Positions 10,508 to 55,060 of a stretch of DNA of 64,000 nt are shown here, in pieces (within the stretch, counting starts at the first letter, position 1; each line of letters begins with the position of its first letter). The notes under the pieces are model-generated. The model had not been told where the DNA came from. It worked only from the letters and a program-made list of their open reading frames with translations, and searched no databases. The DNA is taken from the NCBI GenBank assembly GCA_002746415.1, contig NVXD01000003.1:124001-188000 (forward strand), given 5' to 3'. A program made the position numbers and the translations under genes. The DNA comes from Flavobacteriaceae bacterium. GTDB lineage: Bacteria > Bacteroidota > Bacteroidia > Flavobacteriales > Flavobacteriaceae.

Positions 10508-10538
10508 GTCTTCTTAGCACAAAATATGCGACATTAAA

Positions 10539-35959: not shown

Positions 35960-36029
35960 AGGAGAAGCTATTTTGACTTTGGCAACCTTGACTATTTTAA
36001 GGAACAAGCATTTAAATATAGTAAAAAAG

Positions 36030-36101
36030 TGACCCCGGCAAGAATCGAACTTGCATCTAAAGTTTAGGAAACTTCTATTCTATCCATTGAACTACGGGGC
36101 C
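36030..36101 (-). tRNA. tRNA-Arg (anticodon CCU)
   Basis: The minus strand folds as a tRNA: acceptor GGCCCCG (5') with CGGGGTC (3'), D arm around TAGTTCAATGGATAGAAT, anticodon stem GAAGT/ACTTT with loop TTCCTAA (anticodon CCT, reading AGG), and T arm GCAAG-TTCGATT-CTTGC. The discriminator base is A and CCA is not encoded. It lies 70 bases upstream of the moaE start in the same direction. Confidence 0.95.
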
Positions 36102-36265: not shown

Positions 36266-36540
36266 TAAAAAGTTATCTGAAAGAATTCCACAACATTTCC
36301 TAATACAAAACTTACTACAGCCTATTTTAATCCAATCTTGCCCAGTTCAAAAACAGTTGAAAAAGCTATTCAGAAGGCTCCCAAAACACAGGATGCAAAA
36401 ATAATTATTCCAAAAGTGGGTATGCCATATGTGGTTAAACCAATAAGATTATATACAATATCTAAAACCGTTGTACAAGTAAATAAAGCAAAAGCAAAAT
36501 TAGAAATTATAATAACTACGAACCAAATTATTCCATTATC
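36265..36540 (-). pseudogene. Decayed small membrane protein gene (tentative)
   Basis: Read on the minus strand, one frame gives IIWFVVIIISNFAFALFTC, then VLDIVYNLIGLTTYGIPTF and GIIIFASCVLGAF, then TGA (36370-36372), then IAFSTVFELGKIGLK, TAG, and AVVSFVLGNVVEFFQITF ending at 36265. The hydrophobic pattern continues through both in-frame stops, as in a small membrane protein that has decayed; no ATG start is visible. It overlaps the end of the CusB-like gene by a few bases. It could instead be non-coding DNA, so confidence is low. Confidence 0.3.
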
Positions 36541-38303
36541 TGCTTTACTTCCCCACAGCTAAGCATTGCATTCCCAAAATATGGATTTAGTACTTTTTCC
36601 TCTTTACTTAACCAAAAAGCACCATTATTATCATCTGCCATAGGGCAGAATTGACTGTAAACCTTAAAATCTATCCCAAATAATTGAATGGCATTTGTTA
36701 AATGTGTGGAAAGGTGCTTAAAATGATTTCTTTGCTCTTTTATCTCAGAGGTACTTGAAATAGAACTAGTAGACGCTTTAATTTCCTTTTCTATAGCCAT
36801 CCAGTGTTTGTGAGCTTCCATATTCGTTAATAATTTCATATCCACTCCCTCCAAATTTTTGAGTGTTGAATTTGCACTTTCAACCACCGCTTTAGTATTT
36901 TCCTTGACCAAAGCATCTTTTAAATTGATGTAATCATCAAATACTTTTTTTAATTGTTTTTGAAAATTCGCAGCTACTATAATTCTTTGATTCATTTTAT
37001 CATGGCCCGTATTTTCAGTAGTACTTGTTGTTTCCATTCCAAGATGTCCTTCGTGTCCGGTCATTACTTTTCCACCTTCCTTATTCATCATTGATTTTTT
37101 ACCCTGTAATTGAGCCGCTGCATCTATTGTAAAAGTTCCGTTAGTGACAATTTCATCACCATTCTCTAGGCCCATCAACACCTCATAATTTTCACCTATG
37201 ATATTCCCTAATTGCACTTCTCGCATTTCAAAAACGGGCTCATCAGGATTGGCTTTAAGATACACAACGGAACGTTCCCCCGTCCATAAGACTGCTGTTG
37301 CTGGAATATTTAGCAATTGTTCTTTAGTTGAAGAAATACCTTGAATTTTACCTTCAATAAACATTCCAGGTTTAAATACATTATTTAAGTTATTTAATAC
37401 AACTCTTAGTTTTAAAGTTCTTGTTCGTGTGTCTAATACAGGGTCAATAAAAGAAACTTTACCCTTGAATCCCTTATTGGGATAAGCTTTGGTTGTGATG
37501 GACACTTCTTGTCCTTTTTTGAATAAATCAATTTGATTTTCATAGACATCGAAATTTGCCCAGACCGTGTTTAGTTTTGAGATTTTCAATAGTGGTTGTC
37601 CCTGTTTTATATAATCGCCTTGTGCCACTAATTTTTCTGAAACTGTACCTGAAACTGTTGCATATACAGGGAAATTCTCTAAAACTGTACCCGATGTTTC
37701 AATATTATTGATTTGATTTTCTGATAGTTTCCAGAGTTTTAACTTATTTCTCACAGCTTTGTAGAGTGCGGGTTGCGACTCTTTTAAGGAGGCTGCTGTA
37801 ATCAACTCTTGTTGTGCAGCATACAATTCTGGAGAATAAATGGTCGCTAATAATTGACCTTTATGGATTTCTTCTCCTGTAAAACTCACATTCAATCGTT
37901 CAATTCTTCCAGAAAAATAACTTACTTGTACTGAATTGGATTCTTCGTTTTCAACAATTTTTCCTGATAATTTTATAGTGTTATTGTTTACTTTTTCATT
38001 GCCAACTATGGATGTTTGTACATTGGCCAATGCCATTGCATTTTCGGTTAATTTGAATTGGTCAGCCAATAATCCATCTGCATTATTTTCCGCAGGAATT
38101 AATTCCATGCCACAAATAGGGCAACCTCCTGGTTCTGCTTGCATAATCTGTGGGTGCATAGAACACGTCCATTTTTGATTGGTTTCTGCTACTTCATCAT
38201 GATTATGCTCTATTTCCTTATGTGATGAATTACCAAAAAGCAACCAACCCATAATCAAGCCTATTATTAATATTCCCGAATAAATTATATACTTCTTCAT
38301 CAT
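36528..38303 (-). CDS. CusB-like RND efflux periplasmic adaptor with metal-binding and DUF3347 domains
   Basis: A 591-residue membrane-fusion protein: N-terminal helix (residues 5-23), His-rich linker, YHS-like heavy-metal-binding module at 45-71 (WTCSMHPQIM ... CPICGMEL), barrel-sandwich/alpha-hairpin/beta-barrel adaptor core at about 95-405 and a C-terminal DUF3347 domain at about 435-585 (FCPMADDNNGAFWLS, ending MLSCGEVKQI). It links the RND pump to the TolC channel and delivers periplasmic copper or silver. It is last in the leftward metal cluster, 2 bases after the PepSY gene, so both are probably on one transcript. The pump and channel genes are 5-6 kb upstream. Confidence 0.92.
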   Translation of the reverse strand: MMKKYIIYSGILIIGLIMGWLLFGNSSHKEIEHNHDEVAETNQKWTCSMHPQIMQAEPGGCPICGMELIPAENNADGLLADQFKLTENAMALANVQTSIVGNEKVNNNTIKLSGKIVENEESNSVQVSYFSGRIERLNVSFTGEEIHKGQLLATIYSPELYAAQQELITAASLKESQPALYKAVRNKLKLWKLSENQINNIETSGTVLENFPVYATVSGTVSEKLVAQGDYIKQGQPLLKISKLNTVWANFDVYENQIDLFKKGQEVSITTKAYPNKGFKGKVSFIDPVLDTRTRTLKLRVVLNNLNNVFKPGMFIEGKIQGISSTKEQLLNIPATAVLWTGERSVVYLKANPDEPVFEMREVQLGNIIGENYEVLMGLENGDEIVTNGTFTIDAAAQLQGKKSMMNKEGGKVMTGHEGHLGMETTSTTENTGHDKMNQRIIVAANFQKQLKKVFDDYINLKDALVKENTKAVVESANSTLKNLEGVDMKLLTNMEAHKHWMAIEKEIKASTSSISSTSEIKEQRNHFKHLSTHLTNAIQLFGIDFKVYSQFCPMADDNNGAFWLSKEEKVLNPYFGNAMLSCGEVKQIME

Positions 38304-38305
38304 TA

Positions 38306-39013
38306 TTAATTTTTTCTTTTTATTAATTTTTTAATTGATGGCGAACTGGTAAACCATAATAAAAATCCACTTAAAACTGTAATCAATCCTAAAAGTGAAA
38401 AAGTTCTCAAAACAATAGTATTAAAGTTATCTCTACCTTCATAGTCCATTGTATGGGTCATCCATAAAAAATCAAACCATCGCCAACTTCTGTGCCTCGC
38501 GGTTTGAAACTTTCCATCTTTTACAGAGACATAAGCTTTTAAAGCCTCATCATTATCAAATGAAATAACATAGGCAGGCAACAATCTCCCTCTGTATTCA
38601 TGATGTTTTCCTGTTTCATTAACCCGGTCAACGGATGCTACTTTTAGACCCTCCTTCATATAATTTTTTGCAATATAAAGAGCTTCTTTTTCAGTGATGC
38701 CTTTTTTGATTTTTCCATCTAAGGCATTATAAAGTTGTTTTTTATTTATCCAATAATATGGTGAGTTATTAATATCTTTTAACTCAATAGTATGAACTCC
38801 TTCCAAAATGTTTATCTGTGATGGGCTTATAAGATTGTTGAATGCTTTAGGTTGATAATCCATATTCCTAAACTGGTCGCCGTGAATATCATCAATATCC
38901 GTCCAACTAAAGTACAAACCACTTATCGTCCAAAACAAAAACTGAATGCCCAAAAACAAACCCAAATAACGGTGTGTTTTTCTAATCTTTAGTGCCGTTT
39001 TTCTATTTACCAT
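38306..39013 (-). CDS. PepSY-domain inner-membrane protein
   Basis: A 235-residue protein with an N-terminal helix (HRYLGLFLGIQFLFWTISGL), a periplasmic part with PepSY-like segments (ITEKEALYIAKNYMKEGLKV ... YRGRLLPAYVISFD) and a C-terminal helix (TFSLLGLITVLSGFLLWF). This looks like the single-repeat PepSY-TM proteins often found with siderophore or metal uptake and efflux genes. Gaps to the ATPase (3 bases) and CusB-like gene (2 bases) show it belongs to this operon. Its action is unknown, perhaps electron transfer or metal handling in the membrane. Confidence 0.8.
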   Translation of the reverse strand: MVNRKTALKIRKTHRYLGLFLGIQFLFWTISGLYFSWTDIDDIHGDQFRNMDYQPKAFNNLISPSQINILEGVHTIELKDINNSPYYWINKKQLYNALDGKIKKGITEKEALYIAKNYMKEGLKVASVDRVNETGKHHEYRGRLLPAYVISFDNDEALKAYVSVKDGKFQTARHRSWRWFDFLWMTHTMDYEGRDNFNTIVLRTFSLLGLITVLSGFLLWFTSSPSIKKLIKRKN

Positions 39014-39016
39014 TAT

Positions 39017-41509
39017 CTATATTTTAATATGTCGTAATCTTAATGCGTTTACTATTACTGAAACTGAACTAAAACTCATTGCTAAAGCTGCAATCATTGG
39101 CGACAGTAATAATCCAAATATTGGATATAAAACACCTGCTGCAATCGGTACACCCAACACATTATATACAAATGCAAAAAACAGGTTTTGTTTTATATTC
39201 TTCACTACAACATGACTTAACTTTTTAGCTTTTACAATACCTTGTAAATCACCTTTAACCAAAGTTATTGCCGCACTTTCAATAGCGACATCAGTTCCTG
39301 TACCCATTGCTATTCCAACATCGGATTGTGCTAAAGCAGGTGCGTCATTAATACCATCTCCTGCCATTGCAACAACGCGACCTTGTTGTTGAAGAGTTTT
39401 TATTTCATTGAGTTTATCTTCTGGAAGACATTCTGCTTTATAGTGCTTTAGGTTTAACTGATTTGCAACCGATTTTGCAGTATTCTTATTATCTCCCGTT
39501 AACATTATAACTTCAATACCATTGTTTTGTAATGCTGTTATGGCATTTTGACTGGTTTTTTTAATAGCATCAAAAATAGTTACATAACCTACTGCTGCTT
39601 TATCTACTGATATAAATGATACCGTTTTACCTTGTTCTTGTTCAGCTATAACTTTATTTGCCAAACTTTCAGAAATACCAATAGAGAATTGTTCTAATAG
39701 TTTAGCATTTCCCAATGCAACTTTTTTATTTTCAACTGTTCCAATAACTCCTTTTCCAGCTATTGCTTCAAAATCATTTGCCTTAGTAATAGGTGCATTT
39801 TTTAATTTGCCATAGTTTACGATTGCTTCTGCTAAAGGATGTTCGCTATATTGATTCAAAGATGCTATGTATTGTACTAAAGTAGTTTCTTCCAATGAAT
39901 CAGTTGCTATGACTTTTTCAACGGAGGGTTTCCCTTCTGTAATCGTTCCTGTTTTATCTATAATAAGAGTGTCAACCTTATTCATTTTTTCTAATGCTTC
40001 TGCATTTTTAATTAGAACACCAGATTGAGCACCTCTACCAACACCTACCATAACCGACATTGGCGTAGCTAAACCTAAGGCACAAGGGCAAGCAATAATT
40101 AATACAGCGATTGCATTTACAAAGGCGAATACATAAGCTGGTTCGGGACCAAATACAACCCAAACTATAAATGTTATTACAGAAACAATCAATACAATTG
40201 GAACAAAAAATTTGGATATTCTATCCGCTAATTTTTGAATGGGTGCTTTAGAGCGACTTGCATTATTTACCATATGAATAATTTGAGAAAGTAAGGTTTC
40301 AGAACCAACTTTTTCAGCTTTCATAATGAATGACTTTGTGCCGTTGATTGTTCCCGAACTCACTTTATCATTTACACTCTTGTCCACTGGAATAGGTTCG
40401 CCCGTAATCATTGATTCGTCTATACTACTATTCCCTTCAATAATACTACCATCTACTGGTATTTTTTCTCCTGGTTTAACACGTAATAAATTGCCTTGTT
40501 CAATTTTATCAATGGCAATCACTTGATCTACTCCATTAACTACCAAAGTTGCAACGGATGGGACTAATTTTAGTAACTCCTTTATTGCTCCGCTTGTTTG
40601 ACTATGTGCTCTGGCTTCTAATAATTGCCCTAATAAAACCAAAGTCAAAATCACAGTTGTTGCTTCAAAATATACAAATACGTTTCCATCAGCAGTTTTA
40701 AAATCCTGTGGAAACACATCTGGGAACAACATGGCAAATACACTAAATACCCAAGCAATTCCAGAACCAATCCCAATAAGCGTAAACATATTTAGATGCA
40801 CTGTTTTAATAGAAGTCCAAGCACGTATAAAGAACATCCAAGTTGCATAGAAAACTACAGGAATGGACAATATAAATTGAATCCAATTCCAATTTTTTTG
40901 TTCCAAAATGACATACAAAGGATTGTTGTTTAGCATTTCAGACATCGCTATTAGAAAAATTGGTGCTGTAAAAGCTACAGCAATCCAAAACTTTTTTAGT
41001 AGCCTTTTATAGGTTTTTTCTTCTTCTGAAACATCTGCTTCCAATGGTATTAAATCCATTCCACAAATTGGGCAACTACCTGGTTCATCTTTGATAATCT
41101 CAGGATGCATAGGGCAAGTGAATTGTATACTTTTAGAAGTTATGCTTCTTTCCTCTACCAAATCCATTCCACATACAGGGCAATCGCCTGCTTTGTTATA
41201 GGTTTTGTCTCCCTCGCAATGCATTGGACAATAAAACGTTCCTGTTCCTTCACCTTTAGATTTTTCCTCTTTTTTATCTTCGGAATGATGGTGTTCTCCT
41301 AAATTGTGGATGCTGTATCGACCACCATCATTTATTAAAGCTTCTTTAAAGGTTTCTATTGGAATATGCGATTTCATTTCAATAATTACTTTTGCCATTT
41401 CTAAATTGACATCTACCCTTGAAACGTTTTTTACTTTTGAAAGCGTTGCTTCAACGTGACTCCGACAACCATTGCAAGTCATTCCGTGTATGTGATATGT
41501 ATGCTGCAT
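39017..41509 (-). CDS. copA: Copper/silver-translocating P1B-type ATPase
   Basis: An 830-residue P1B ATPase. N-terminal HMA domain with GMTCNGC (Cys12, Cys15), two YHS-like metal modules at about 92-118 and 130-156 (each CPMH ... CP-C-GMDL), then eight membrane helices, [10 protein letters not shown], the transport motif Cys474-Pro-Cys476 in [13 protein letters not shown], phosphorylation site Asp518 in [13 protein letters not shown] and [14 protein letters not shown] with the C-terminal motif set of subgroup 1B-1 fits Cu(I)/Ag(I) export to the periplasm. It follows the AraC regulator gene and is the first of three tightly packed genes with PepSY and CusB. Confidence 0.95.
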
Positions 41510-41585
41510 TATTTATAAATTTTAGTATTAATCCGCTAATTTACACCCACTTAATGTGTGTGGTTTTTCTAATTATGGTTAAAAC

Positions 41586-42143
41586 TTATATAATTCTGTC
41601 TAATGTCTTCCTGTCCCAATCTTTCAGTCTTTTGAACTCCGTCATTGACATGCCTGTACTATTCTTGAACTGACTTGCCAAGTGACTACTATTGTTATAA
41701 TCTAGACTATATGCTATTTGCGAAAAATTCAATTGTGCTAACTGTATCAACTCCTTTACCTTTTCAATCTTTAGATTAATTTCATATTTTTCAATAGTCA
41801 TTCCTTCAGTTTTGCTGAAAAGTTTGCTTATAGTTGAATAGGACTTGTTGAACCTTTTAGTCAAAAATGAAGAAAGATTTGCATTATCCTGATTTCCGAT
41901 TTTTTTGATTAGGCTAATCTTAATTTCTTCTATCAAAACTTCCGTTTCATCCTTAATGATTTCAAAGCCATGTTTCTTTAGGACTTCTTCCAATTTAATA
42001 TGATTAATAGTTGCGTTTTTGTTTAGAATTATTTGTCCCAATTCAACTGATTTAATGTCATAACCTAAAAGGTCCAACTCACGCAATACAGTTGATTTAC
42101 ATCTATCACAAACCATATTTTTTATGTAAAGGATTTGTTTCAT
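41586..42143 (-). CDS. AraC-family regulator with N-terminal metal-binding-like domain
   Basis: About 185 residues from the ATG at 42143 (MKQILYIKN). Residues 1-70 resemble a small HMA/ferredoxin-like domain with CDRC at 12-15 (NMVCDRCKSTVLREL), and residues about 85-185 form an AraC helix-turn-helix pair (LSSFLTKRFNKSYSTISKLF ... FSQIAYSLDYNNSSHLASQF). A metal ion such as Cu(I) could bind the cysteines and tell the DNA-binding part to act, so this is probably the local switch for the cluster. The metal-sensing role is inference from layout and neighbours. Confidence 0.82.
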   Translation of the reverse strand: MKQILYIKNMVCDRCKSTVLRELDLLGYDIKSVELGQIILNKNATINHIKLEEVLKKHGFEIIKDETEVLIEEIKISLIKKIGNQDNANLSSFLTKRFNKSYSTISKLFSKTEGMTIEKYEINLKIEKVKELIQLAQLNFSQIAYSLDYNNSSHLASQFKNSTGMSMTEFKRLKDWDRKTLDRII

Positions 42144-42258
42144 ACTCACTTTTTTATAATGTCTGACTTGGAAAGAGCTATACACCAATAATCCTATATC
42201 TCTTTCACTTATCAGGGATTTAATATAAATAGTTTTTTAGATTTTTCACGATTTTCAT

Positions 42259-42852
42259 TTAGTTGATCTCTTTTTGCACTTTTCCACAGGTCAACATTTT
42301 ACTACCATAATATGGGTTTTTAATCTCCTTGTTCATACTTAACCAAGCAGTTCCACCGTCATACATTGGGCAAAATTGTTGATATAAAGTATCCTCCGTA
42401 CCAGTAATTGCAACCATATCCGTGATGTTTTTACTCAACACTTTAAAATGTTCACGTTGGCTACCTATTTCACTTTTACCTATAAGCCCTGCCTGTTCTT
42501 TGGCATCCGAGATGATATCTTTTAAATCTTCTTGCTGTTCTGAAGTATAGCTGCTCACATCAAAACTATTCAATGTGCTTTCAAGATTCTTTCCAGCTTT
42601 TGCAGCTATATCTTGATTGGTTGCGACTAAAGCCTCCTTAAGTACCATATAATTTGCCAATATTGGTTGCGCACCAGTATTCTGTGAATTAGAATCCATT
42701 GTATCATTTGAGGCACTCATTTCATCGTGGTTCATTTCAGAATGCATCGTATTATTGTGTGCATTTTCTTTTTTTAAATCTTTACAAGACATCGCTGTTA
42801 AGCTTAAAAATGCCATTACCATAATTGTTGTTGTTAGTCTTATTTTTTTCAT
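42259..42852 (-). CDS. DUF3347 lipoprotein, periplasmic metal-binding candidate
   Basis: A 197-residue lipoprotein (lipobox LTAMSC, Cys23) with a Met/His-rich segment at about 32-55 (NNTMHSEMNHDEMSASNDTM) and a DUF3347 domain to the end (FCPMYDGGTAWLSMNKEI, KMLTCGKVQ). Met-rich stretches bind Cu(I) and Ag(I). The same domain closes the CusB-like adaptor in this cluster, so both ends of the system share it. It lies between the TolC-like and AraC genes on the common strand. Confidence 0.82.
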   Translation of the reverse strand: MKKIRLTTTIMVMAFLSLTAMSCKDLKKENAHNNTMHSEMNHDEMSASNDTMDSNSQNTGAQPILANYMVLKEALVATNQDIAAKAGKNLESTLNSFDVSSYTSEQQEDLKDIISDAKEQAGLIGKSEIGSQREHFKVLSKNITDMVAITGTEDTLYQQFCPMYDGGTAWLSMNKEIKNPYYGSKMLTCGKVQKEIN

Positions 42853-42880
42853 TGTTGTTAATTTTAATTTATACTTATTT

Positions 42881-44098
42881 TTAGTTACTTAAATAATTGA
42901 TGATTGTAGTTTGCACATAGTAGGTTTTAACAGATTCTATTTGGTTCATTTCAAACTTCAACTGCAACTCCTGAATATCTAAAACATCATTAAAATCAAT
43001 TGTTCCTGTTTCATAGCTTTTGATTAATATTTCTTCGGCATCATTGGCTTGTTTCAAGTTCTTCGTTTGTGTTTTGTAGCTGATTCTTGCAGAAATTCTA
43101 TCGTTCACCGCTTTATCCAAAACAGTTTCCAATTTGTTCAATCGCACTTGTTTCTGTGCATATAATTCCTGCTTTTTCAACTCATTTTGTCTAGTTTGTG
43201 ATTTGTACTTTTTATTGAATATTGGAATTGACAGTGACACCATTGGCATTACAATATCTTTTCCATTATCACTAAAATCCATATTTGGTCTATTCTCAAC
43301 ATTAACGTAATCCAGCCCAAAACCAATCATAGGAAGGCTTTCTTTTTGATTTAATAGTTCTGACTGCTCAACAGAATGGTAGAGTTTGTCATACTTAATC
43401 AATTCTGGATGCAGCGATAAATTTTCTGCATTAACCAAAGTAGTTTCAAAAGGAATGGTTAATTCATTCACAACATCGACTTCTACGGATTTATCTCTAT
43501 TCAAGAGCTTATTAAGTGCTGTTTGTTCAGCCAAATATTGTTGAGTCAATACTTCTTTCAGTTGTTCCAACTCATTTTGACGCATTTGTAATCGCAATAC
43601 ATCTACTGCTGAGGCTTTGCCAACCTCAACAGAAGTCAATGCCAAAGTTTCATAAATTTCTAGTAATTCAATATTTTGTGCCAACACCTTTTGCCTTGCT
43701 TTATTCGCATACAAATTGTAAAAGGATTGTGATACAGAGACCACTAATTTTCTTTTAGCAATAACAATATCCTCATATTTTGCATCAGCCAACGAGCTTA
43801 CATAATTCTCTCTTGCTGTGATAGAACCAAACCAGGGTAACATTTGTTTGGCTGATACTTTAAACCGTTGTGCTCCTGTTCTTGTCTCTGGTTCACTAAC
43901 AAAGTACCCAACTCCTAATTCAGTATTTGGAATCGTGTGTACTTCGTTTATCTTTTCAGAAACAATGCTATATTGCAGCTCATATTTTTGAATTTCCGGA
44001 CTATTTTTCAATGCTTCTTCTATAAGTGTTTCCAATTGTTGTGCACTTGAAAAACCAAAAGTTAAAAGTCCAATCCCTATTAAAATTATTCTTTTCAT
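42881..44098 (-). CDS. TolC-family outer-membrane channel (CusC-like)
   Basis: A 405-residue protein with a signal peptide (MKRIILIGIGLLTFGFSSAQ) and two long helical repeats typical of TolC channels (KARQKVLAQNIELLEIYETL ... LRLQMRQNELEQLKEVLTQQ, and the second copy RLNKLETVLDKAVNDRISAR). It forms the exit duct of the tripartite pump. Its start overlaps the stop of the RND gene by four bases (44095-44098), indicating translational coupling. Confidence 0.9.
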   Translation of the reverse strand: MKRIILIGIGLLTFGFSSAQQLETLIEEALKNSPEIQKYELQYSIVSEKINEVHTIPNTELGVGYFVSEPETRTGAQRFKVSAKQMLPWFGSITARENYVSSLADAKYEDIVIAKRKLVVSVSQSFYNLYANKARQKVLAQNIELLEIYETLALTSVEVGKASAVDVLRLQMRQNELEQLKEVLTQQYLAEQTALNKLLNRDKSVEVDVVNELTIPFETTLVNAENLSLHPELIKYDKLYHSVEQSELLNQKESLPMIGFGLDYVNVENRPNMDFSDNGKDIVMPMVSLSIPIFNKKYKSQTRQNELKKQELYAQKQVRLNKLETVLDKAVNDRISARISYKTQTKNLKQANDAEEILIKSYETGTIDFNDVLDIQELQLKFEMNQIESVKTYYVQTTIINYLSN

Positions 44099-47000
44099 TT
44101 CATTACTTTTTTAAGTTGTACTTCTTGTTTCCAACTATATAAAACAGGAACAATAAATAATGTGATTAAGGCTATAACCATTCCTCCAAAACTTGGAATT
44201 GCCATAGGAATCATAATATCACTTCCACGTCCTGTTGATGTTAAAACCGGCAATAATGCCAATATGGTGGTTGCCGTGGTCATCAAGCAAGGGCGAATAC
44301 GCTTTTCTCCAGCTTCAACTACAGATGCTCTTATTTCCTGTTTTGTTACAGGGGTATTTCTTTCAAAAGTTTGGTTTAGGTAGGTTGCCATAACCACACC
44401 ATCATCTGTTGCAATTCCGAATAAAGCAATAAAACCAACCCAAACGGCAACACTCAAATTAATGGTGTGCATTTGAAATAGGTCTCGTAAATTTTCTCCA
44501 AAAAAACTGAAGTTTAAAAACCAGCCTTGTCCATACAACCAAATCATGATAAAACCACCTGCAAATGCTACGGCAATTCCTGTAAAAACCATTAATGATG
44601 TGGCTACAGAACGAAATTGGAAGTACAAAATCAAAAAGATAATAAGTAAGGCCAAAGGCACAACTACTGATAAGGTTTCTTCCGCTCGCAATTGATTTTC
44701 ATAAGTTCCTGTAAATTTATAGTTGATGCCCTTTGGTACTATTAATTCTCCCGAATCTATTTTTTGCTGAATTAAAGTTTGAGCATTTTCAACCACACTT
44801 ACTTCTGCAAAACCATCTAATTTATCGAAGAGTACATAACCCACTAAAAAAGTATCTTCACTTTTAATGGCTTGTGGTCCTTGTTCATAACGAATACTTG
44901 CCAATTCGCTTAATGGAACTGGGCTACCCTTCTCAACAGGCACATAAATCTGCTTTAAATCGTCAGGATTAGTTCGAAGTTCTCTTGGGTATCGCACACG
45001 AACACCATAGCGTTCACGACCTTCAACGGTTTGGGTCAACACCATTCCACCAACAGCAACTTTCAATACATCTTGTACATCCTGTATTGAGATGCCATAT
45101 CGTGCTATTTTCTCTCTGTCAATATCAATTAACAAATACGGTTTACCCACAATACGGTCTGCAAAAACCGCTTCGGATTTAACACCTTCGGCTTGTTTCA
45201 AAATTCCTTCTAATTGGATTCCAAAAGCCTCAATTTGTTTTAAATCTTGCCCTTTTACTTTAATCCCCATTGGTGCACGCATTCCTGTCTGGAGCATTAC
45301 CAATCGTGTTTCAATGGGTTGTAATTTAGGTGCAGAAGTAACTCCTGGTAACTTGGTTACTTTTACAATCTCTTTCCATATATCGTCTGGAGAGTTTATT
45401 TGAGGTCTCCAGTTGCGATAAAACTCCCCGCTATCATCTTCAATTAGTTGTGCTCTAACAATAGCAGAATATAAAACAGCATCTTGATTAGAATTATTTG
45501 GGTTTGCAATAAAACGCCCATCTTTTAATTTAAATAAACCGTCATCATTTACTTGATAACGTTGGCGTTCTCCATCAGCGTTTAGCATATATTCAGATTT
45601 ATACTGAATTACATTTTCATACATAGATAAAGGTGCAGGATCCAAAGCAGATTCTGTTCGACCTGCTTTTCCAACAACTGTTTTGATTTCTGGAATACTA
45701 GCTACGGCCATATCTAACTGCTGTAATACACGTTTGTTTTCTTCTACTCCAGAATGTGGCATTGATGTAGGCATCAAGAGAAAAGAACCTTCATTTAATG
45801 ACGGCATAAACTCTTTTCCTGTATTCTTCATTATAAAAAACCCTCCAATAACTATAAGCGTAGGAATTGAAAGGAACGCTAATTTATTGGCTAAAGCCCA
45901 CTGTAAAATACGTGTATAATATCTTCTAAATAATGTAAACACACCTAATAAGCCAAAACAGATTATCCCAACAAAAATGAGGTTCCAGAATATGCTTTTA
46001 TCAACACCCAAAGGTCTCCAATATGTTGCTAAAAGAAAAATAATTGCCAAAGCCGAGATGACAATATTTACAAGGTTTGCTCTTAATTCCGAAAGTTTTT
46101 TATTTAACTTTAAAATTGAAGTAACTCCAAAAGCTACAAGTATTAGCCCTAACCAATATCCATAAATAATTGCAATAATCCCCAATAAGATTACGATGCT
46201 ATTAATCACATAGTTTTTGATTTTAGTAATCGATTTCTTTTTGAATAAGTAGGCTGCAAATGGTGGGATTAAAAACAAAGCAACTATTAAAGAGGCAGTC
46301 AACGCAAAGGTCTTTGTATAAGCTAATGGTCTAAATAATTTCCCTTCAGCACCTATCATTGTAAACACCGGAATAAAACTTATTATTGTTGTAAGTACAG
46401 CAGTTAAAATTGCCCCTGAAACTTCTGTTGTAGCATTATAAACAACCGTATTTATTGGTAACTTTTTCTTGTTTTCATCCAAATGCCTTATGATGTTTTC
46501 TGATAGAATAACACCCACATCTACCATCGTCCCAATAGCAATAGCAATACCAGATAATGCCACAATATTGGCATCTACATTAAAGATTTTCATAGCTATA
46601 AAAACCATTAAAACTGCAATTGGTAATAAGCCAGATATGAGTACAGAAGCACGAAGATTAAACACCATAATAAGAATAACTAAAATGGTAATTAGTATTT
46701 CTAATGTTAGTGCTTCATTAAGTGTCCCTAATGTTTCTTGAATGAGTTCTGTTCGGTCATAAAATGGTACAATAGTTACTTGCGAAGTACTACCATCACT
46801 CAATACTTTTAATGGTAACCCCGTGCTTAATTCCTTTATTTTTTCTTTAACATTGTTAATGACTTCCATCGGGTTTGCACCATACCTCGCAACTACGACA
46901 GCGCCAACTACTTCAGCACCTTCTTTATCTAAAATCCCTCTTCTTGTTGCAGGACCTAAAGACACCTTAGCAATATCCTTTATTTTTATTGATGTATAAT

Positions 47001-47808
47001 CTTCAGACGTAACTACGGCATTTTCGATATCAGCAATAGACTTAACATAGCCCAAGCCACGCACCAAATATTCGACTTTATTTATTTCTAAAGTCTGAGC
47101 ACCTATGTCTTTATTGCTTTCCTTTACAGCTTTTACAACCTGCTGCAAACCTATATTGTATTGACGCATTAATTCTGGGTTGACATCTACTTGATATTCC
47201 TGAACATAACCACCAATGGAGGCTACTTCCGAAACTCCGCTTGCAGAAGACAGCGCATATTTTACATAATAATCTTGAATACTTCGCAGCTCGTGTAAAT
47301 CCCATCCGCCTGTAACATTACCGTTTTCATCGCGACCTTCAAGCGTGTACCAAAATATTTGTCCTAAACCTGTTGCATCTGGACCCAAAGCTGGATTTAC
47401 GTCATTTGGTAACAAACCACTAGGGAGAGAATTTAGTTTCTCAAGAATTCGACTACGACTCCAATAAAATTCTATACCCTCTTCAAAAATGATATAGATA
47501 CTAGAAAAGCCAAACATTGAAGAACTTCTGATTGTTTTTACTCCTGGAATACCTAACAACGATGTTGTTAATGGATATGTAATTTGGTCTTCAATATCTT
47601 GTGGAGAACGACCATCCCATTTCGTAAATACAATTTGTTGATTTTCTCCTATATCTGGAATAGCGTCCACCTTTACGGGGTTACTTGGTAAAAAACCTAT
47701 ATCCCAATTAAAAGGTGCGTGAATTGTTCCCCATCCTATAAAAAGGACGAGCATTAAAACTGCAACGAGTTTGTTTTCTATAAGAAATTTTATGCTTTTA
47801 TTTAGCAT
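44095..47808 (-). CDS. cusA: CusA/CzcA-type heavy-metal RND efflux pump
   Basis: A 1237-residue heavy-metal-efflux RND protein. Helix 1 precedes DIGENQQIVFTKWDGRSPQD, which is typical of the CzcA/CusA group; the helix-4 segment GIAIAIGTMVDVGVILSENI holds the proton-relay Asp; the C-terminal half repeats this layout (LFGIATDDGVVMATYLNQ). It is about 190 residues longer than E. coli CusA because of extra hydrophobic segments between helices 6 and 7 (from about INSIVILLGIIAIIYGYWLG), a feature of Bacteroidota pumps. It takes metal, probably Cu(I)/Ag(I), from the periplasm and passes it to the TolC channel. First large gene of the cluster. Confidence 0.93.
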   Translation of the reverse strand: MLNKSIKFLIENKLVAVLMLVLFIGWGTIHAPFNWDIGFLPSNPVKVDAIPDIGENQQIVFTKWDGRSPQDIEDQITYPLTTSLLGIPGVKTIRSSSMFGFSSIYIIFEEGIEFYWSRSRILEKLNSLPSGLLPNDVNPALGPDATGLGQIFWYTLEGRDENGNVTGGWDLHELRSIQDYYVKYALSSASGVSEVASIGGYVQEYQVDVNPELMRQYNIGLQQVVKAVKESNKDIGAQTLEINKVEYLVRGLGYVKSIADIENAVVTSEDYTSIKIKDIAKVSLGPATRRGILDKEGAEVVGAVVVARYGANPMEVINNVKEKIKELSTGLPLKVLSDGSTSQVTIVPFYDRTELIQETLGTLNEALTLEILITILVILIMVFNLRASVLISGLLPIAVLMVFIAMKIFNVDANIVALSGIAIAIGTMVDVGVILSENIIRHLDENKKKLPINTVVYNATTEVSGAILTAVLTTIISFIPVFTMIGAEGKLFRPLAYTKTFALTASLIVALFLIPPFAAYLFKKKSITKIKNYVINSIVILLGIIAIIYGYWLGLILVAFGVTSILKLNKKLSELRANLVNIVISALAIIFLLATYWRPLGVDKSIFWNLIFVGIICFGLLGVFTLFRRYYTRILQWALANKLAFLSIPTLIVIGGFFIMKNTGKEFMPSLNEGSFLLMPTSMPHSGVEENKRVLQQLDMAVASIPEIKTVVGKAGRTESALDPAPLSMYENVIQYKSEYMLNADGERQRYQVNDDGLFKLKDGRFIANPNNSNQDAVLYSAIVRAQLIEDDSGEFYRNWRPQINSPDDIWKEIVKVTKLPGVTSAPKLQPIETRLVMLQTGMRAPMGIKVKGQDLKQIEAFGIQLEGILKQAEGVKSEAVFADRIVGKPYLLIDIDREKIARYGISIQDVQDVLKVAVGGMVLTQTVEGRERYGVRVRYPRELRTNPDDLKQIYVPVEKGSPVPLSELASIRYEQGPQAIKSEDTFLVGYVLFDKLDGFAEVSVVENAQTLIQQKIDSGELIVPKGINYKFTGTYENQLRAEETLSVVVPLALLIIFLILYFQFRSVATSLMVFTGIAVAFAGGFIMIWLYGQGWFLNFSFFGENLRDLFQMHTINLSVAVWVGFIALFGIATDDGVVMATYLNQTFERNTPVTKQEIRASVVEAGEKRIRPCLMTTATTILALLPVLTSTGRGSDIMIPMAIPSFGGMVIALITLFIVPVLYSWKQEVQLKKVMK

Positions 47809-47917
47809 TGGCTTTGATAATTAAACAATTAGACATTAGTGTTAAGAAAACACCGAATACAAGAAATTATCCTAATGGAAAAACATCCATTGGATAAAAA
47901 AGTCTACTGTTTACTAA

Positions 47918-48331
47918 TCAAATTAAATAAGTCTCGTCAAACTTATAGATTTGTTTGACGACAAGGGGAGGGACGTATTCTCTATATAAAGCTACATTTT
48001 CTTCTAAGCCTTCAAAAAGGTTGATGTAAGTATAAACAAATGATGCAACAAATAATTGTTGGTCAAAAGTTAGTGTGTCAAAAGACAGTTGTAACTCGCT
48101 TTGACCGTCAATAACAAAATGTTCATCGGAACAACAATCTTTCACCTTTATAGAGCAATCTACAATTGAAGGCTTTTGCATTTCCATTCCACAAGATTTC
48201 ACTTTGTGAAAGATTGCAGTATCAACTAACGTATCTCCACAATAATGCATATCAACAGTAAATGACATTGTAGAAAAAAGGACTACAATTGCCATTAAAA
48301 AGGATGATATTTTAGAAAATATTTGCTTCAT
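47918..48331 (-). CDS. HYC_CC_PP family protein
   Basis: A 137-residue protein with a signal peptide or N-terminal anchor (SSFLMAIVVLFSTMSFTV). It shows all three motifs behind the family name: MHYCG, VKDCCSDEH and EYVPPL. Family members are short cysteine-rich proteins of Bacteroidota and usually sit next to CusA/CzcA-type pumps, as here, where it is the first gene of the leftward cluster, 109 bases before the RND gene. A role as a periplasmic metal-binding chaperone fits but is unproven. Confidence 0.88.
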   Translation of the reverse strand: MKQIFSKISSFLMAIVVLFSTMSFTVDMHYCGDTLVDTAIFHKVKSCGMEMQKPSIVDCSIKVKDCCSDEHFVIDGQSELQLSFDTLTFDQQLFVASFVYTYINLFEGLEENVALYREYVPPLVVKQIYKFDETYLI

Positions 48332-48491: not shown

Positions 48492-48573
48492 TCAAAATAG
48501 CATAAAGAATGATTCTATTTTTTCTTATAAATATTGTTAAGACCAAAAAATGTTGTGCTTAAACAAAAAAAGC
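48492..48573. repeat. 82-bp direct repeat, left copy
   Basis: This stretch matches 52335-52416 at 76 of 82 positions with no gap, from TCAAAATAGCA to CAAAAAAAGC. The two copies bracket a 3.76-kb interval holding the sulfatase/GH78 gene. The copy also contains the last codons and stop (48559-48561) of the leftward small secreted ORF. See the right copy for its relation to tRNA-Leu. Confidence 0.9.
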
Positions 48574-48708
48574 AACTTGTACATCCTTTTCTTCAAAGAC
48601 ATTTTTTTTATCGATAATGGATGCCGTCGGTTTAGGGGTATGGGCTTTTGCAGCTAACCCAGATGTTATCAGTAGAACAATTAGTGATAGTATTAATTTA
48701 ATTTTCAT
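48559..48708 (-). CDS. Short secreted ORF (49 aa), possibly a truncated gene
   Basis: Starts 43 bases after the stop of the sulfatase/GH78 gene in the same direction. The 49-residue product begins with a good signal peptide (MKIKLILSLIVLLITSGLAA) and goes on KAHTPKPTASIIDKKNVFEE, then KDVQVAFFV before a TAA that lies inside the left 82-bp repeat. Large secreted glycan enzymes of Bacteroidota often start with such a signal followed by NVFEEKDG-x-V, so this may be the first 40 codons of such a gene cut off at the repeat boundary. A genuine short peptide is the alternative. Confidence 0.55.
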   Translation of the reverse strand: MKIKLILSLIVLLITSGLAAKAHTPKPTASIIDKKNVFEEKDVQVAFFV

Positions 48709-48751
48709 TTGCTACTATTGATTATGATGTGGACGGGAATTCAATTCTTTT

Positions 48752-51700
48752 CTAAAAGGAATTAATCTTTAATTGAATTGTATGTTTCCCCGGTGAAAGT
48801 CGAATGGATTCAAAAGCAGATGGAACTTTTGTCCCATTATGAATTAAATCTTTTCCTTCTAAACCATTCAATGAAAATTCGGCTACCATATTTCCTGGTA
48901 TTTCAATTTCATAGGTTTGTAACCTTTCACCATTGTAGGTGTACTTCCCTTTGATTGTTCCTCGCACCGTAGGCACTGCAATAGTACTAGACTTTAAACT
49001 ACTCATTTGAGGCTTTATCGTTGCAATTCCAAAACCAGGTGTTCTAGGTTTAATACCCCATAACCCTCTAGGTATTGCATTTGCAGGTACCGCTCCCCAA
49101 GCATGGTTCCAATCTAAATTCGTTTTATGCTTTATATCCCAAGCTTCTAAAGTTATCGTAGAACCAATACGAATCATATTATACCAACTTCTTTCGGCTT
49201 TACTTGTCAACAATTCTAAGGCATAGTCTTGTTCTCCAGCATTGTACAGACCATCCATTAAGAATTGCGACCCATAAACACTACAAGCCATTCCTCGTGA
49301 TTTCACAAAATCAACCACAGACTCAAAATGCTCTTCGGGTACCAACCCAAAAGCCAATGGCATCATATTAGCATGTAAGGATGCATGGTCTGTGCCAATT
49401 CCATCAACATAAATGCCTTTTTCTCTATCGAACATTAGCTCATTAACCGCCTTTTTTGCTTTAGCAGCTCTTAATTGAAAATCTAATACCTCTTGTGTCT
49501 TGCCAAGGATTTGAGCAAATTCTGCCATGATTCTCATGTTCTCATAGAAGAAGGCATTAATAACCGTACTATAAGGCTTAAACACAAAACCATCGCGTTC
49601 TCCCTTATTTCCGCTTCCCTGAAAATTAGCCGATGGCCAATCTACTATATCGGTTAATGCTTGTTTATAACCAGGTTTAAAACCGAGCTTATACATAAAT
49701 TCTTCATCTACTTTTGTTGATGTGATTAAGCCATCTTCATTCGCTAATTCATAAAGTGTTTTATGCCTTAATTGCTCATAATATCTTTCGATAAGCTCTG
49801 TATTTCCGGTATACATATAATCTGCATAAATTAATAACGCTACATGTTGTTGCCACTCGGTTGGCCATGTTGGATGCTCCATAAAATACTCTATGGTTCG
49901 TCTTGCCATAGCAAACTCCCTATCGGTTGTATAATGGCTTAACTGATTTAAGTAAGCATCAGCCTCATATGGGATACGCTCTCTATCTCCATCAACATAT
50001 AGACCGTTGAAGGTCGTTGCTTTAATAGAGTACTTACATAAATCCCAAACTTGGTTTAAAATATCATTATCACTCTCAAAACTACTCGCTTCTTCATCCC
50101 AATAGCTAAAATGTGCCAATTGTTCAAAATCATCTGCTTTTAAAGGTTCTTGTGCACCTTCTACCTCGGCATATCTAAAGGGTAATAATACAGGGAACCC
50201 ATGCGGTAATGCAATAGCCTTATTTGCCAGCGTATTTCTTTTATCTGGTTTTATTTGAATTTGATATGCTGTTTTTCCCGGTGTTACATCCACTTTAACC
50301 TCTTGGTATCGAATATGGCTTTTTTTGAAAGGTTCTCTATTGATGTTTTCTCCTTCTAACTGCTCTCCTACTCTTATAGTTAAAGTGTGAGGTTCTTTTG
50401 CTTCATATTTGAAATCTAGCGTTGCAAATGCATCTTTACCAAAATCCATAAAATAAAAATCGCCTCTATTTCTAAATGCAACAGGTTTAATTTTTTCAAT
50501 ATTGAATTTATTTTCTGTTGAAATGATATAACTATTGCTTTTACCTGTAGTGAATTTTTGTGCTTCGGAATAATCAACCAGTCTGTTTTCTTCTTCCCAA
50601 ATTCTTACTTTCCAGTAGTATGTTTTTCCTGCTTCTAGCGATTTCCCTTCGTACTCCACGTCTGTTGATGCCGAAGAACGAACTTGACCACTATCCCATA
50701 TATCACCCTTATTAGCATCAATACTTACTTTGTTAGAAGCTATCAGTATTTGGTATGCCGATTGGAATTTTGATGCTACCGGAACGGTCCACCCAAATTC
50801 TGGTTGTAAATCAAACACTTCAACTTCGGTTTCAGGTTCTCTTATAAGCTCCACAGTTAAATCGGTTGGAGCGGACCTATACACGTTACTGTTTTCTTTA
50901 ATTAATGCATCAAGCTTGGCTCTTAACTTATCTGCAACCACTGTATACTTTTTCTTTCCTATTAAGTTTTTAATCTCTTGTGGGTCTTTCTTTAAATTAT
51001 AAAGCTCCTCAATGGTTTTATCATTAACGTATCTAAAATATTTCCATTCTTTGGTACGTACGCCTTCACTTGGTGGAATTTCACTAAAATCCCAAATGTG
51101 CTCTATTAAAATGGTATCTCTATTAATCGTATTAGTTTCTTGCTTCACTATGGGCAACAAACTTTTTCCTTGCCAAGTATCCGGAGCTTTTACTCCTGCT
51201 ATATCAGCTATTGTTTGCGGCACATCAATATTTAGTACCATATCATCAACATCTTGATGTTTATTCACTCTAGGATCGAAAACTATTAAGGGAACTCGAA
51301 TTGAATTATCATACATTAACCATTTTCCAGCGAATTGACGTTCTCCTAAAAAATAACCATTATCACCCATTACAATGATAACAGTGTTTTTATCTAGCCC
51401 TTTTGTTTTTAATTTTTCTCGAATTTTTTTTATCTCTAAGTCGATTCCCGAAATCATTCTATAATAGCCCTTTAGGCTGTGTTGGTATTTTTCAGGGGTA
51501 TCGTAACGCCATGTCCAACGCAATCTATTAAAACCATCCCTGACGATTTTAGGTTGTGCTTCAAAATACTTATCGTCTCCGAGCACAGGTCCGGGAATAG
51601 TACTATTTGCAAGTAAGGTATCGGTCGTGTTTTGCCAAAAGTATTGCTTAACCGCACCATCATGCGCATGAGGTGCACTAAAGCTAAGGGATAAACAAAA

Positions 51701-52285
51701 TGGTTCTTCATTTGAAGCATTCTTATCAATAAAGTCGAGTGCCTTTTGACCTGTATATCGAGTCAGGTGTACCGTATCTTTACCTAAGGTTTTGTAATAG
51801 TAACCTCTTCTATCCTTAAAACGGTTGTTTCTGTCGTAGGATTCGTATTCATCGAATTGCTTGTCCAAATCATCATAACGCACCCCATATTTCCCGTAAA
51901 ACCCAGTGTAATAGCCATTATTTTTTAACAACATGGGATACGAATTTGCCATATATTCCTCACGAATATTTCCTGTTTGAAAATTAAAATTATGGGCTCG
52001 CTCATACAAACCTGTCAAAATACTCGCTCTACTTGCCGCACAAATCGGAGTGGTAACTATCGCTGTTTTAAAATAGGTGCCTTCCTTGGCCAATTTGTCC
52101 ATTTCGGGGGTAGAAATAAGTTCATTTCCGGCATAGCCCAAAGCATCAAAACGTTGGTCATCAGTAAGGATGAAAATGATATTGGGTTTTTGGGTTTGTT
52201 GTTCTTGGGCTTTTAGCGGAAGTATGCAAACATATAAAAGGATTACAACTAAAATTCTCATTTTTGTAAATTTGTTATTTGCCAA
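48752..52285 (-). CDS. Sulfatase (S1) / alpha-L-rhamnosidase (GH78) fusion, ulvan type
   Basis: A 1177-residue secreted protein (signal peptide to about residue 27; ATG at 52285, with MRILVV at 52261 as alternative). Residues about 33-465 form a type I sulfatase: [17 protein letters not shown] (metal Asp42/43) and the maturation motif [11 protein letters not shown], where Cys82 becomes formylglycine. Residues about 480-600 look like a fibronectin-like/rhamnosidase N-domain, and about 600-1177 a GH78 alpha-L-rhamnosidase with [19 protein letters not shown] (about 767-785) and [20 protein letters not shown]. The same S1-GH78 pairing is known from the ulvan locus of Formosa agariphila, where it frees sulfated rhamnose units. 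It lies between two 82-bp direct repeats. Confidence 0.93.
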
Positions 52286-52334
52286 GTTAGGTTTTCATTT
52301 AAAAACCTAAATATAAGGCAGAATGAAAAAGATT

Positions 52335-52416
52335 TCAAAATAGCACAAAGTATAATTCTATTTTTGCTTATAAATATTGTTAAGAACAAAAAATGTTGTG
52401 CTTGAACAAAAAAAGC
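52335..52416. repeat. 82-bp direct repeat, right copy, downstream of tRNA-Leu
   Basis: Matches 48492-48573 at 76 of 82 positions, ungapped. Its right end is the T-tract and first stem bases of the tRNA-Leu terminator (52408-52435), so this copy belongs to the tRNA-Leu downstream region. The left copy has the T-tract but lacks the hairpin. It begins 50 bases before the sulfatase/GH78 start, so it may also hold that gene's promoter region. Confidence 0.9.
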
Positions 52417-52435
52417 CCCTCATTTCTGAAGAGCT
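52408..52435 (-). terminator. Intrinsic terminator of tRNA-Leu
   Basis: On the minus strand AGCTCTTCA and TGAGGGGCT pair over nine positions (two G-T pairs) with loop GAAA, followed by seven T residues. It starts 36 bases after the tRNA-Leu 3' end and is the natural stop for it. Confidence 0.8.
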
Positions 52436-52470
52436 TTCTAATAAGGCTTGCATTGAGCAAAGCCTAAATG

Positions 52471-52552
52471 TACAGGCGGAGAGACTCGAACTCTCACACC
52501 GCAAGGCACTAGATCCTAAGTCTAGCGTGTCTACCAATTCCACCACGCCTGC
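52471..52552 (-). tRNA. tRNA-Leu (anticodon UAG)
   Basis: Minus-strand fold: acceptor GCAGGCG with CGCCTGT, D arm TGGTGGAATTGGTAGACAC, anticodon stem CTAGA/TCTAG with loop CTTAGGA (anticodon TAG, reading CTA), a long class II variable arm (TGCCTTGCGGTGTG) and T arm GAGAG-TTCGAGT-CTCTC. Discriminator A; CCA is not encoded. The 82-bp repeat begins 55 bases beyond its 3' end. Confidence 0.96.
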
Positions 52553-52662
52553 ATCTGTCCTCCTGATAGCTATCAGGATTTCGGGATGCAAATATAAAGC
52601 AAAATTTCAATTTAAAAATGCTTTTTTTGACACTAATTATTCTGAAACGTCGTATTTCAATT

Positions 52663-53634
52663 TCATTCTCTTTTATATTGCAACATCCAATCATAAATAG
52701 AGACATCAAATTTATCATACTCATTAGCATCTGCCGGCAAGTTCTTATAGGTATTCGTCCAGGCATTGTGAGCCGTTCCCTTATACACGGTTAGTTTGGC
52801 TTTCACCTCTGGATTTAATTGATTAATTGCATTTACCATGGGTACAGAACCAAAATTATCAAATGCATTTACCAAAGGATCATCTGCTCCATGAAAGGCC
52901 CATATAGGCACCTTGGCTAAATTTTCAATCAAATGTGCACCACCAGATGCGCTGATAGGAACTATCGCCGCTGCATAACTCTCTTCTCCCATTTCTCCTG
53001 CATAAAACCAAGAACCGCCACCACCCAGACTTAAACCGGTAACATAAATTCTATTTGTATTGATTTGATAATTGTCAATAACATATGTAATGAATTCATG
53101 GATTTTATTCGTAGGCCAGTAGGTGAAATTTAATTGAGGAGAAACCACAACAAAAGGGTAGGAAGGATCCCAATTATTGCTTCTTATCAAGCGGGGAGGT
53201 CCCCAAGACAAAACCTTATCCAACTCGGAAGGGTCATTGCTACTGTCGCCTCTTTCTCCCCATCCATGCATGAAAATTATAAGTGGGTACTCGGGCCCAT
53301 CATTGGTATAGCCACTAGGGGTGTATACATAATGACCAAAATAAGCTTCCGTAGTGCCTAAAGGAAAAGCTGTATGCGTTCCTCCTGTATCTTTCGGCAG
53401 ATGATCCAAATCACTAGCATCTATTATGATCTCTGTCTCTACCAAAATGGGGTCGGGTTCATCTATGATTTGGCTAGAATTATCTCCCTTTGTTTCGGGA
53501 TTATTTGGTTTTGAACAGGCGATTATCATGGAAAAAAAACCTATCCCCACCAAAAAAACCATTCTTCTAAGGCTGTTAACTATAAGGGTCACAAAATCAT
53601 TAGGGTACGACCAAAAAAACGTAAAATAATTCAT
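52663..53634 (-). CDS. Secreted esterase/lipoprotein of the alpha/beta-hydrolase fold
   Basis: A 323-residue protein with an alpha/beta-hydrolase domain: oxyanion region IIFMHGWGERGD, nucleophile in YVTGLSLGGGGSW (G-x-S-x-G), acid in WAFHGADDPLV and histidine in KGTAHNAWTN. Such proteins are annotated as phospholipase/carboxylesterase or prolyl oligopeptidase-like; some are acetyl-xylan or feruloyl esterases in glycan loci. The N-terminus contains a lipobox-like stretch FFSMIIAC, which would fit a start near 53562 or a GTG upstream of it; the ATG at 53634 gives a longer signal. It is transcribed towards tRNA-Leu and stands alone. Confidence 0.82.
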   Translation of the reverse strand: MNYFTFFWSYPNDFVTLIVNSLRRMVFLVGIGFFSMIIACSKPNNPETKGDNSSQIIDEPDPILVETEIIIDASDLDHLPKDTGGTHTAFPLGTTEAYFGHYVYTPSGYTNDGPEYPLIIFMHGWGERGDSSNDPSELDKVLSWGPPRLIRSNNWDPSYPFVVVSPQLNFTYWPTNKIHEFITYVIDNYQINTNRIYVTGLSLGGGGSWFYAGEMGEESYAAAIVPISASGGAHLIENLAKVPIWAFHGADDPLVNAFDNFGSVPMVNAINQLNPEVKAKLTVYKGTAHNAWTNTYKNLPADANEYDKFDVSIYDWMLQYKRE

Positions 53635-53801
53635 ATTTTAAATAACTTATATTGCAATAGTAACGCATTTAAACAATGATTCGGTTCGAATGTACCCATT
53701 CGTACGAAATCCGATATCCAAAGTATTCTTTATAACCAATGGCTTTCTAATTTGGTCTTGGTGTTTTCCAGTTTTAATTGATAAGAAAGCCAAACTACAG
53801 T

Positions 53802-54899
53802 ATGACTTTTATCCCCATTGAAATATTTATACTCATAGGCATCGCCCAAGGATTATTTCTAATCATTGGTTTATCAGGAATCCGTAAAAAGAATAAAACG
53901 GCCAATGATTATCTCATTGCATTTTTAATTGTCACAACACTTCTTTTACTGGCCCGATTGAGATTCACAAGAGGTCTAGACGCAGACTACATGAGATTAG
54001 GACGATTAATTGATGTTGTATTCTTTATGTATTGTCCACTTTTATACGGGTACCTAAAACAGGTAACGTACAAGGGTAAATATAGCATGCACAAGATTCA
54101 TTTCATTCCTTTGATAATCAGTTTATTAATAGGAATATATTTCGTTATTCTCCCAATAGATGTATATCTGCAAATGCTATCTAAAGGACAGCTAGAGTTG
54201 TATTTTATTCTAACCGAACTGGCAATGACCCTATTAAACTTCACTTATTTAATACTGTCTTTTAGACACTTAAAAAAATATGAACAAAACGAGAAACATT
54301 TGCTATCCTTCCGGCAAAGTAATGTCACCTACTTAAAGGTGTATCTATGGTCTATAACCTTATGCATATTATGCTGGTTATGTGTTTTAGCAAATAACCT
54401 ATTCTTCAAAACCAATATGGGGATAATCAATTATGGAACCATTTGGATAGGTATGAGTTTTAGCACCTATATTATTGCCTATTATAGTCTTATACATTCC
54501 AAAATCTTTCAGTTTGAAAATGAAAAAGACAATACCATTACTAATAGGCTTTTGCCACAAGATATTGAACATCTCCAAGCCAAACTTGATGCGCTTATGT
54601 CCAAGGAGGACATTTACCTTGATCCAAAACTTACCCTACAAGACTTCTCAAAAAAAATCAAAGCCTCAAGCAATGACGTTTCTTGGTTTTTGAATACCAT
54701 TTTAGATAAAAGTTTTTATAACTATATCAATCAATTTCGCATCAAAGCGTTTGTAAGAAAGCTTGAACGAAATGAGCATAAAACTCAAACCATTCTTGCG
54801 CTTTCCATGGAAGTGGGCTTTAACTCAAAATCAACCTTTAACAAAGCCTTCAAACTTGAAATGAATGAGACACCGAGCCACTATATCAAAAAGCTATAA
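53802..54899 (+). CDS. Membrane-anchored AraC-type regulator
   Basis: From the ATG at 53802, 365 residues. The first about 230 residues form seven or so membrane helices (IEIFILIGIAQGLFLIIGLS, LIAFLIVTTLLLLARL, LIISLLIGIYFVILPIDVYL ...), then a short linker and a C-terminal AraC domain from about 265 (LTLQDFSKKIKASSNDVSWF ... TQTILALSMEVGFNSKSTFN). This is the 7TM-HTH_18 layout found in Bacteroidota. It may respond to a membrane-soluble or periplasmic signal. It is divergent from the esterase gene and could regulate it. Confidence 0.88.
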   Translation: MTFIPIEIFILIGIAQGLFLIIGLSGIRKKNKTANDYLIAFLIVTTLLLLARLRFTRGLDADYMRLGRLIDVVFFMYCPLLYGYLKQVTYKGKYSMHKIHFIPLIISLLIGIYFVILPIDVYLQMLSKGQLELYFILTELAMTLLNFTYLILSFRHLKKYEQNEKHLLSFRQSNVTYLKVYLWSITLCILCWLCVLANNLFFKTNMGIINYGTIWIGMSFSTYIIAYYSLIHSKIFQFENEKDNTITNRLLPQDIEHLQAKLDALMSKEDIYLDPKLTLQDFSKKIKASSNDVSWFLNTILDKSFYNYINQFRIKAFVRKLERNEHKTQTILALSMEVGFNSKSTFNKAFKLEMNETPSHYIKKL

Positions 54900-55060
54900 A
54901 ATTTAATTTCTTAAAGTTGTTTGAATGTGCCCAAAAGGTCTATTTCTTCCTCTATTTAGTATGAGACATATAAATAACTTGACCTAGGCCAAAAAGATTC
55001 AAAAAAGTACAATTTATTTAACAATCCTTTTTAGTAATTTTAGCGCTCATATATATATTC

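Follow-up and report, generated by a model that had tools for sequence, protein, structure and literature searches.

A sulfatase/GH78 gene between two 82-bp direct repeats beside tRNA-Leu(UAG) in a Flavobacteriaceae genome: a possible relic of an ulvan island

The window, a stretch of 64,000 nucleotides from contig NVXD01000003.1 of a Flavobacteriaceae bacterium, contains a pair of direct repeats of 82 bp each next to a tRNA-Leu gene. A summary of the locus is given in Table 1. The two copies align without gaps and share 92.7% identity (76/82), which confirms the coordinates and the identity reported in an earlier sequence-only reading of this DNA. Read in the direction of the tRNA, the right copy opens with the last two hairpin bases and the T-tract of the tRNA-Leu terminator. 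The left copy starts with the same GC and T-tract and lacks the hairpin, again as described before. Between the repeats lie 3761 bp (48574-52334), which hold a sulfatase/GH78 gene and the start of another gene that breaks off at the left repeat after 46 codons. The repeats had been thought to flank exactly one large gene. The sulfatase/GH78 gene is indeed present, but with the stub beside it the segment is a fragment of a gene cluster. The GC content of the insert is like that of its surroundings, and a scan for sigma-70-type promoters gave fewer matches than were obtained in shuffled sequences. The terminator scan missed the tRNA's own terminator and is hence uninformative on the left copy.

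Table 1. Features at the tRNA-Leu(UAG) locus, in positions of the window.
Feature	Position	Strand	Remarks
Metal-efflux operon, left neighbour of tRNA-Leu	36528..48331	-	Pfam; same order beside tRNA-Leu in G001
Left 82-bp copy	48492..48573	-	putative older-element arm that presumably lost its hairpin and tRNA 3' fragment
5' stub of a second gene (46 codons), cut off by the left repeat with GCT overlap	48571..48708	-	relatives of ~670 aa with GH115_C match
S1 sulfatase/GH78 rhamnosidase fusion gene, intact frame, CAASR motif	48752..52261	-	Pfam; 6hr5_A; ATG at 52261, end at 48752
Leader between right copy and sulfatase/GH78 ATG	52262..52334	-	no alignment to other loci among the matches listed
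Right 82-bp copy	52335..52416	-	putative tRNA-proximal arm of a younger, ulvan-carrying element; geometry as in G025
tRNA-Leu terminator hairpin, not at left copy	52414..52438 (approximate)	-	read from sequence
tRNA-Leu(UAG) (anticodon TAG)	52470..52552	-	ARAGORN; integration hotspot in relatives
Alpha/beta hydrolase and AraC regulator genes 5' of tRNA-Leu, a second insertion relative to G001	52624..55016 (about)	.	G001 alignment

According to Pfam, the fusion gene encodes S1 sulfatase and GH78 domains in one chain, which is 1169 aa long when counted from the ATG. Its best match among solved structures is 6hr5_A, in the sulfatase part (E 3.7e-256). We take 6hr5 to be a P36-type S1 sulfatase-GH78 fusion, presumably the enzyme named S1_25 and P36 with Formosa as its source, and we assume a role of this enzyme in the degradation of ulvan, a seaweed sugar. 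By similarity to the 6hr5 sulfatase domain, the protein encoded in the window probably acts in the breakdown of ulvan oligosaccharides, and selection may have retained the gene for that single ulvan step. No other ulvan-specific gene was found beside it among the window genes scanned, which were a part of all window genes. Three GH88/105 genes of the same genome are located on other contigs. Transcription of the fusion gene runs towards the metal-efflux operon, which is on the same strand, and as there is no hairpin at the left copy it may read through. In a set of 80 named sulfatase/GH78 loci with flanks of up to 10 kb (less in some), tRNA genes lie near the gene in two. An uncultured Polaribacter (L121:10001-13758) has 56 bp between the end of its sulfatase/GH78 gene and a tRNA-Leu(TAA)-Gly-Asn array.

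In L097 and L010, two of the matches listed, the gene directly downstream of sulfatase/GH78 has an N-terminus that matches the stub. In its best relatives, L214 and L215, the match continues through NGQVA, so that the similarity to the donor reaches the GCT at the repeat edge. In 32 stub-gene loci, of which 30 came with flanks of only 1.5 kb, a full sulfatase/GH78 gene adjoining a stub-type gene was seen in two genomes. The window's own genome (3.8 Mb in 36 contigs, 96.75% complete) has no match to the stub gene; the same query matches 57 of 397 genomes of the family. Its next-best sulfatase reaches 35% among the matches listed and a second fusion gene is not present. A duplication from within the own genome was rejected on these grounds.

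The genus is represented by two genomes, the own genome and G001. In G001 the metal-efflux operon, tRNA-Leu and an M20 peptidase gene are contiguous and the insert is absent. Its best match to the fusion protein is at 33% and covers the sulfatase part only (among the matches listed), and it has no ortholog. This uninterrupted gene order supports the earlier proposal of an insertion beside the tRNA gene. The sequence-only reading had further named, as a finding that would support insertion, a relative with the flanking sequences side by side and a single copy of the repeat. The flanking genes are contiguous in G001, but a recognisable 82-bp copy is not found there (0 matches at E 0.001). The intergenic site of G001 gave a modest local alignment with the two copies, which was equalled by 11 of 500 shuffles for the left and 16 of 500 for the right one. 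For the 160-bp left flank of the window, 441 of 500 shuffles aligned as well with G001. As the left flank fails to align, so does the site at base level, and the empty site rests on gene order.

Since the unoccupied site is known from one relative, loss in G001 is an alternative to gain in the window. We favour gain in the lineage of the window, which is supported by the absence of a sulfatase/GH78 ortholog from the tRNA-Leu regions of ten relatives (26-40 kb each, E 1e-15). The distance from tRNA-Leu to the M20 peptidase gene is at most ~0.25 kb in 9 of 10 relatives and 1.5 kb in G008. The second insertion, 5' of the tRNA gene (Table 1), has edges without a common repeat of more than 7 bp in the 100-120 bp compared. 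Two further observations concern distant parts of the window. Positions 19499-19514 are a 16-bp exact match to part of the tRNA-Arg(CCT) gene at 36029-36101, ~16.5 kb away. A SusC/SusD pair with a large FG-GAP/ASPIC protein is located at 7062-15609, and weaker homologs are found less than 20 kb from tRNA-Leu in G018.

None of the 15 integrase matches of the own genome is located on contig C1, which carries both copies, and tblastn with the own-genome integrases found none on C1:60001-213672. A 3' fragment of tRNA-Leu longer than 12 nt was likewise not found on C1:60001-213672. That neither an integrase nor a tRNA fragment is present would suit a capture in one step, by which a foreign 3.8-kb fragment was joined to the 3' side of tRNA-Leu through illegitimate recombination or template switching, with local duplication of 82 bp and no integrase. 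Such an event would also fit the flanking genes of G001, which are uninterrupted, the exact abutment of foreign sequence and left copy with a 3-nt overlap (GCT), and the end of the fragment inside a gene, as from random breakage. However, 82 bp is long for a duplication by illegitimate recombination.

A search of the own genome with the 82-bp sequence returned the two copies only (the second at E 1.2e-28), both flanking the segment; this is the search for further genomic copies that had been suggested before. The full-length sequence is absent from all other genomes among 397 of the family. In total 15 weak matches were obtained in 14 other genomes, covering 23-57 bases of the query. Pfam was run on ten proteins, one each at 8 of these 15 places and at 2 of 4 weak places of another search, and none is an integrase; the places outside this check are L201, L204, L208 and four without locus, as well as two of the other search. 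The flanking of a gene by direct repeats might suggest a mobile single-gene cassette with the 82-bp repeats as its own ends. We rejected it as very improbable: there are two genomic copies only and no full-length copy in other genomes, a search of the 80 named sulfatase/GH78 loci with the left copy gave no match above 31 nt, and the segment contains a truncated second gene. A donor molecule, circular or linear, with an 82-bp-like arm could also have entered by a single homologous crossover with a resident arm, leaving an arm on both sides. This would explain the direct repeat with its 7% divergence as well as the lone piece of cargo, but it requires the junction of stub and repeat to exist on the donor beforehand, and the restriction of the full-length sequence to the own genome among the 397 argues against it as well. 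We consider this crossover improbable.

In relatives, the tRNA-Leu(UAG) gene is an integration hotspot. G008 has a 3' copy of tRNA-Leu (53 bp, 94%) 18 kb downstream; an integrase match precedes this copy by 0.9 kb. G018 has a 3' copy (47 bp, 87%) 14 kb away and no integrase match. In G025 an element of 29 kb is found with a 62-bp tRNA copy (95%) beside an integrase, followed by further element ends; ARAGORN also scores this copy as tRNA-Leu. The motif GGTACAACATAGGTACAACA is present at both ends of the G025 element. Moreover, the segment following the terminator in G025 recurs twice beyond the tRNA copy in direct orientation, with 86% over 183 bp and 75% over 88 bp. As in the window, these repeats have their start at the T-tract rather than within the hairpin. 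A long post-tRNA repeat of this kind occurs in one of 15 relatives, namely G025 (5-30 kb downstream searched), and short ones occur in G008 and G018. Tandem repeats after the tRNA were counted in 5/48 cases versus 1/48 upstream, 6/288 further downstream and 19/960 shuffles, which is suggestive only. By eye, tandem units after tRNA-Leu in L280, L270, L261 and L271 resemble a repeated tRNA 3' end with terminator.

The elements at the same tRNA gene lend support to the earlier suggestion that the segment entered on an element whose integrase was lost. A duplication of downstream sequence, as also suggested then, is not the best reading, as the repeats behave like tRNA-proximal ends of accreted elements in the manner of G025. 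An origin of both repeats from one and the same element, one at each end, was rejected: the ends in G025 share blocks of 24-25 nt, and no distal end was seen in the window.

A further relative, G069, belongs to another genus of the same family. It was chosen, like G025, via a second partial tRNA match among the matches listed, had already been noticed for an arm-like motif and is also among the stub-gene matches. Here the complete tRNA-Leu is separated by 122 kb from a downstream 59-bp sequence that copies its 3' end exactly. The island contains an ortholog of the sulfatase/GH78 gene (81% aa over 1173 residues) as well as one of the stub gene (68%). Both have the order and orientation relative to the tRNA that is found in the window, but they are ~41 kb apart. 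Other genes of the island encode a protein with ulvan-lyase beta-trefoil domain, two GH106 rhamnosidases, SusD, a sulfatase-modifying enzyme and UxuA; of 78 frames listed 69 are inside the island, and Pfam was run on 19 of these and one outside. Next to the arm, the island has an aldose epimerase gene. With the integrases of the own genome as queries no integrase was found in the island, and a short frame near its far end appears to resemble the helix-turn-helix protein often accompanying such elements. A tRNA 3' copy and tRNA-Leu share a contig in four relatives (G008, G018, G025 and G069), and G069 alone was seen to have an ulvan cluster; in the other three, the cargo was searched mostly with genes of the window.

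These integrase elements at the same tRNA gene, one with the repeat geometry of the window and one with an ulvan island, speak against the one-step capture, which we regard as unlikely although it deserves more weight than the crossover. Taken together, we propose that the segment is a decayed relic of an ulvan island at tRNA-Leu(UAG) that had accreted between the tRNA gene and an older related element, and assign this a probability of roughly 0.55. The younger element, with its ulvan cluster, would have entered at tRNA-Leu(UAG) and come to lie nearer to the tRNA gene than the older one. The 82-bp copies would then be the tRNA-proximal ends, i.e. the integrase arm regions, of two elements and not a target duplication, and they would be alike because both elements belong to one family. 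Through later deletions the island would have lost its integrase, almost all of its cargo and the distal end together with the tRNA 3' fragment. Among these deletions, one may have joined codon 46 of the second cluster gene to the T-tract at which the older arm starts, across the GCT overlap, and the sulfatase/GH78 frame would have survived. The left copy might even stem from an element that brought the metal operon, which is a guess.

With two accreted elements, followed by loss of nearly everything but one enzyme gene, one can explain where the segment lies, why there is a repeat that opens at the T-tract and why its copies diverge, as well as the truncation of the second gene and the lack of an integrase. 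If the repeats are the ends of two elements, their 7% divergence need not date the event, which had previously been taken as old. The main points against this origin are the missing tRNA fragment and the weak similarity of the arms. The latter would be in favour of the capture. In the right copy the motif AGCACAACATTTT is located 67 nt from the tRNA end. Its generalised form [AG]G[CT]ACAACAT, a post hoc motif, is found no farther than 110 nt from the tRNA end in 6 of the 49 loci that were usable (55 tried), the window included, with 0.029 expected. The start of the repeat thus has a motif at a similar distance in relatives, which is evidence against the capture.

Beyond ~22 nt the similarity of the repeats to the arms is weak. 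A profile of the relatives' arms on C1:60001-213672 (153.7 kb) placed the left copy at rank 2 (E 2.5) and the right copy at rank 8 (E 8.4). When the T-tract was omitted, the left copy was found at rank 3 (E 4.8), and the right copy was not among the best 12 rows. Eight pairwise arm comparisons including the T-tract were reached in score by 0-8 of 500 shuffles. For the same pairs without the T-tract, 2, 32, 40, 47, 94, 107, 121 and 318 per 500 shuffles did so; hence one of eight pairs is clear of the shuffles (2/500) and seven are not. A search for arm motifs beside the integrases of the own genome gave nothing useful.

Ulvan clusters appear patchy in marine Bacteroidota. A common site that holds a largely whole island in one genus and a relic in another would offer a route for their spread and loss, and paired arm repeats beside tRNA-Leu would be a recognisable scar to search for. 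More tentatively, elements specific for tRNA-Leu(UAG) might be a standing vehicle of ulvan clusters in Flavobacteriaceae, the window representing a late stage with one selected enzyme gene between two accreted arm scars; we see this generalisation as possible rather than probable.

Among known systems, the fusion enzyme 6hr5 resembles the window's gene in domain order and in the strong similarity to its solved sulfatase domain. The gene in the window differs as an orphan, with no other ulvan-specific gene among the neighbours scanned. For Alteromonas sp. 76-1 a CAZyme plasmid for ulvan is described (PMC6431674), so that ulvan genes on a mobile replicon are the common feature; it differs in being a plasmid, and the word "tRNA" is absent from the main text (PMC6431674). 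In the titles and abstract openings among the literature matches listed, no ulvan island at a tRNA gene is described. Islands of tyrosine integrases at tRNA genes that accrete in tandem share with the window the tRNA-adjacent site, the absence from a same-genus genome and the catabolic cargo, as well as a direct repeat that we read as the tRNA-proximal end, in the geometry of G025. Unlike them, the window yielded neither an integrase nor a distal end, and a duplicated tRNA 3' end was not found. The island of G069 differs from the window by being largely whole, ~32 times larger, bounded by an exact 59-bp tRNA copy and with a different gene beside the arm. It is located at the same tRNA gene and carries both orthologs in the same order and orientation.
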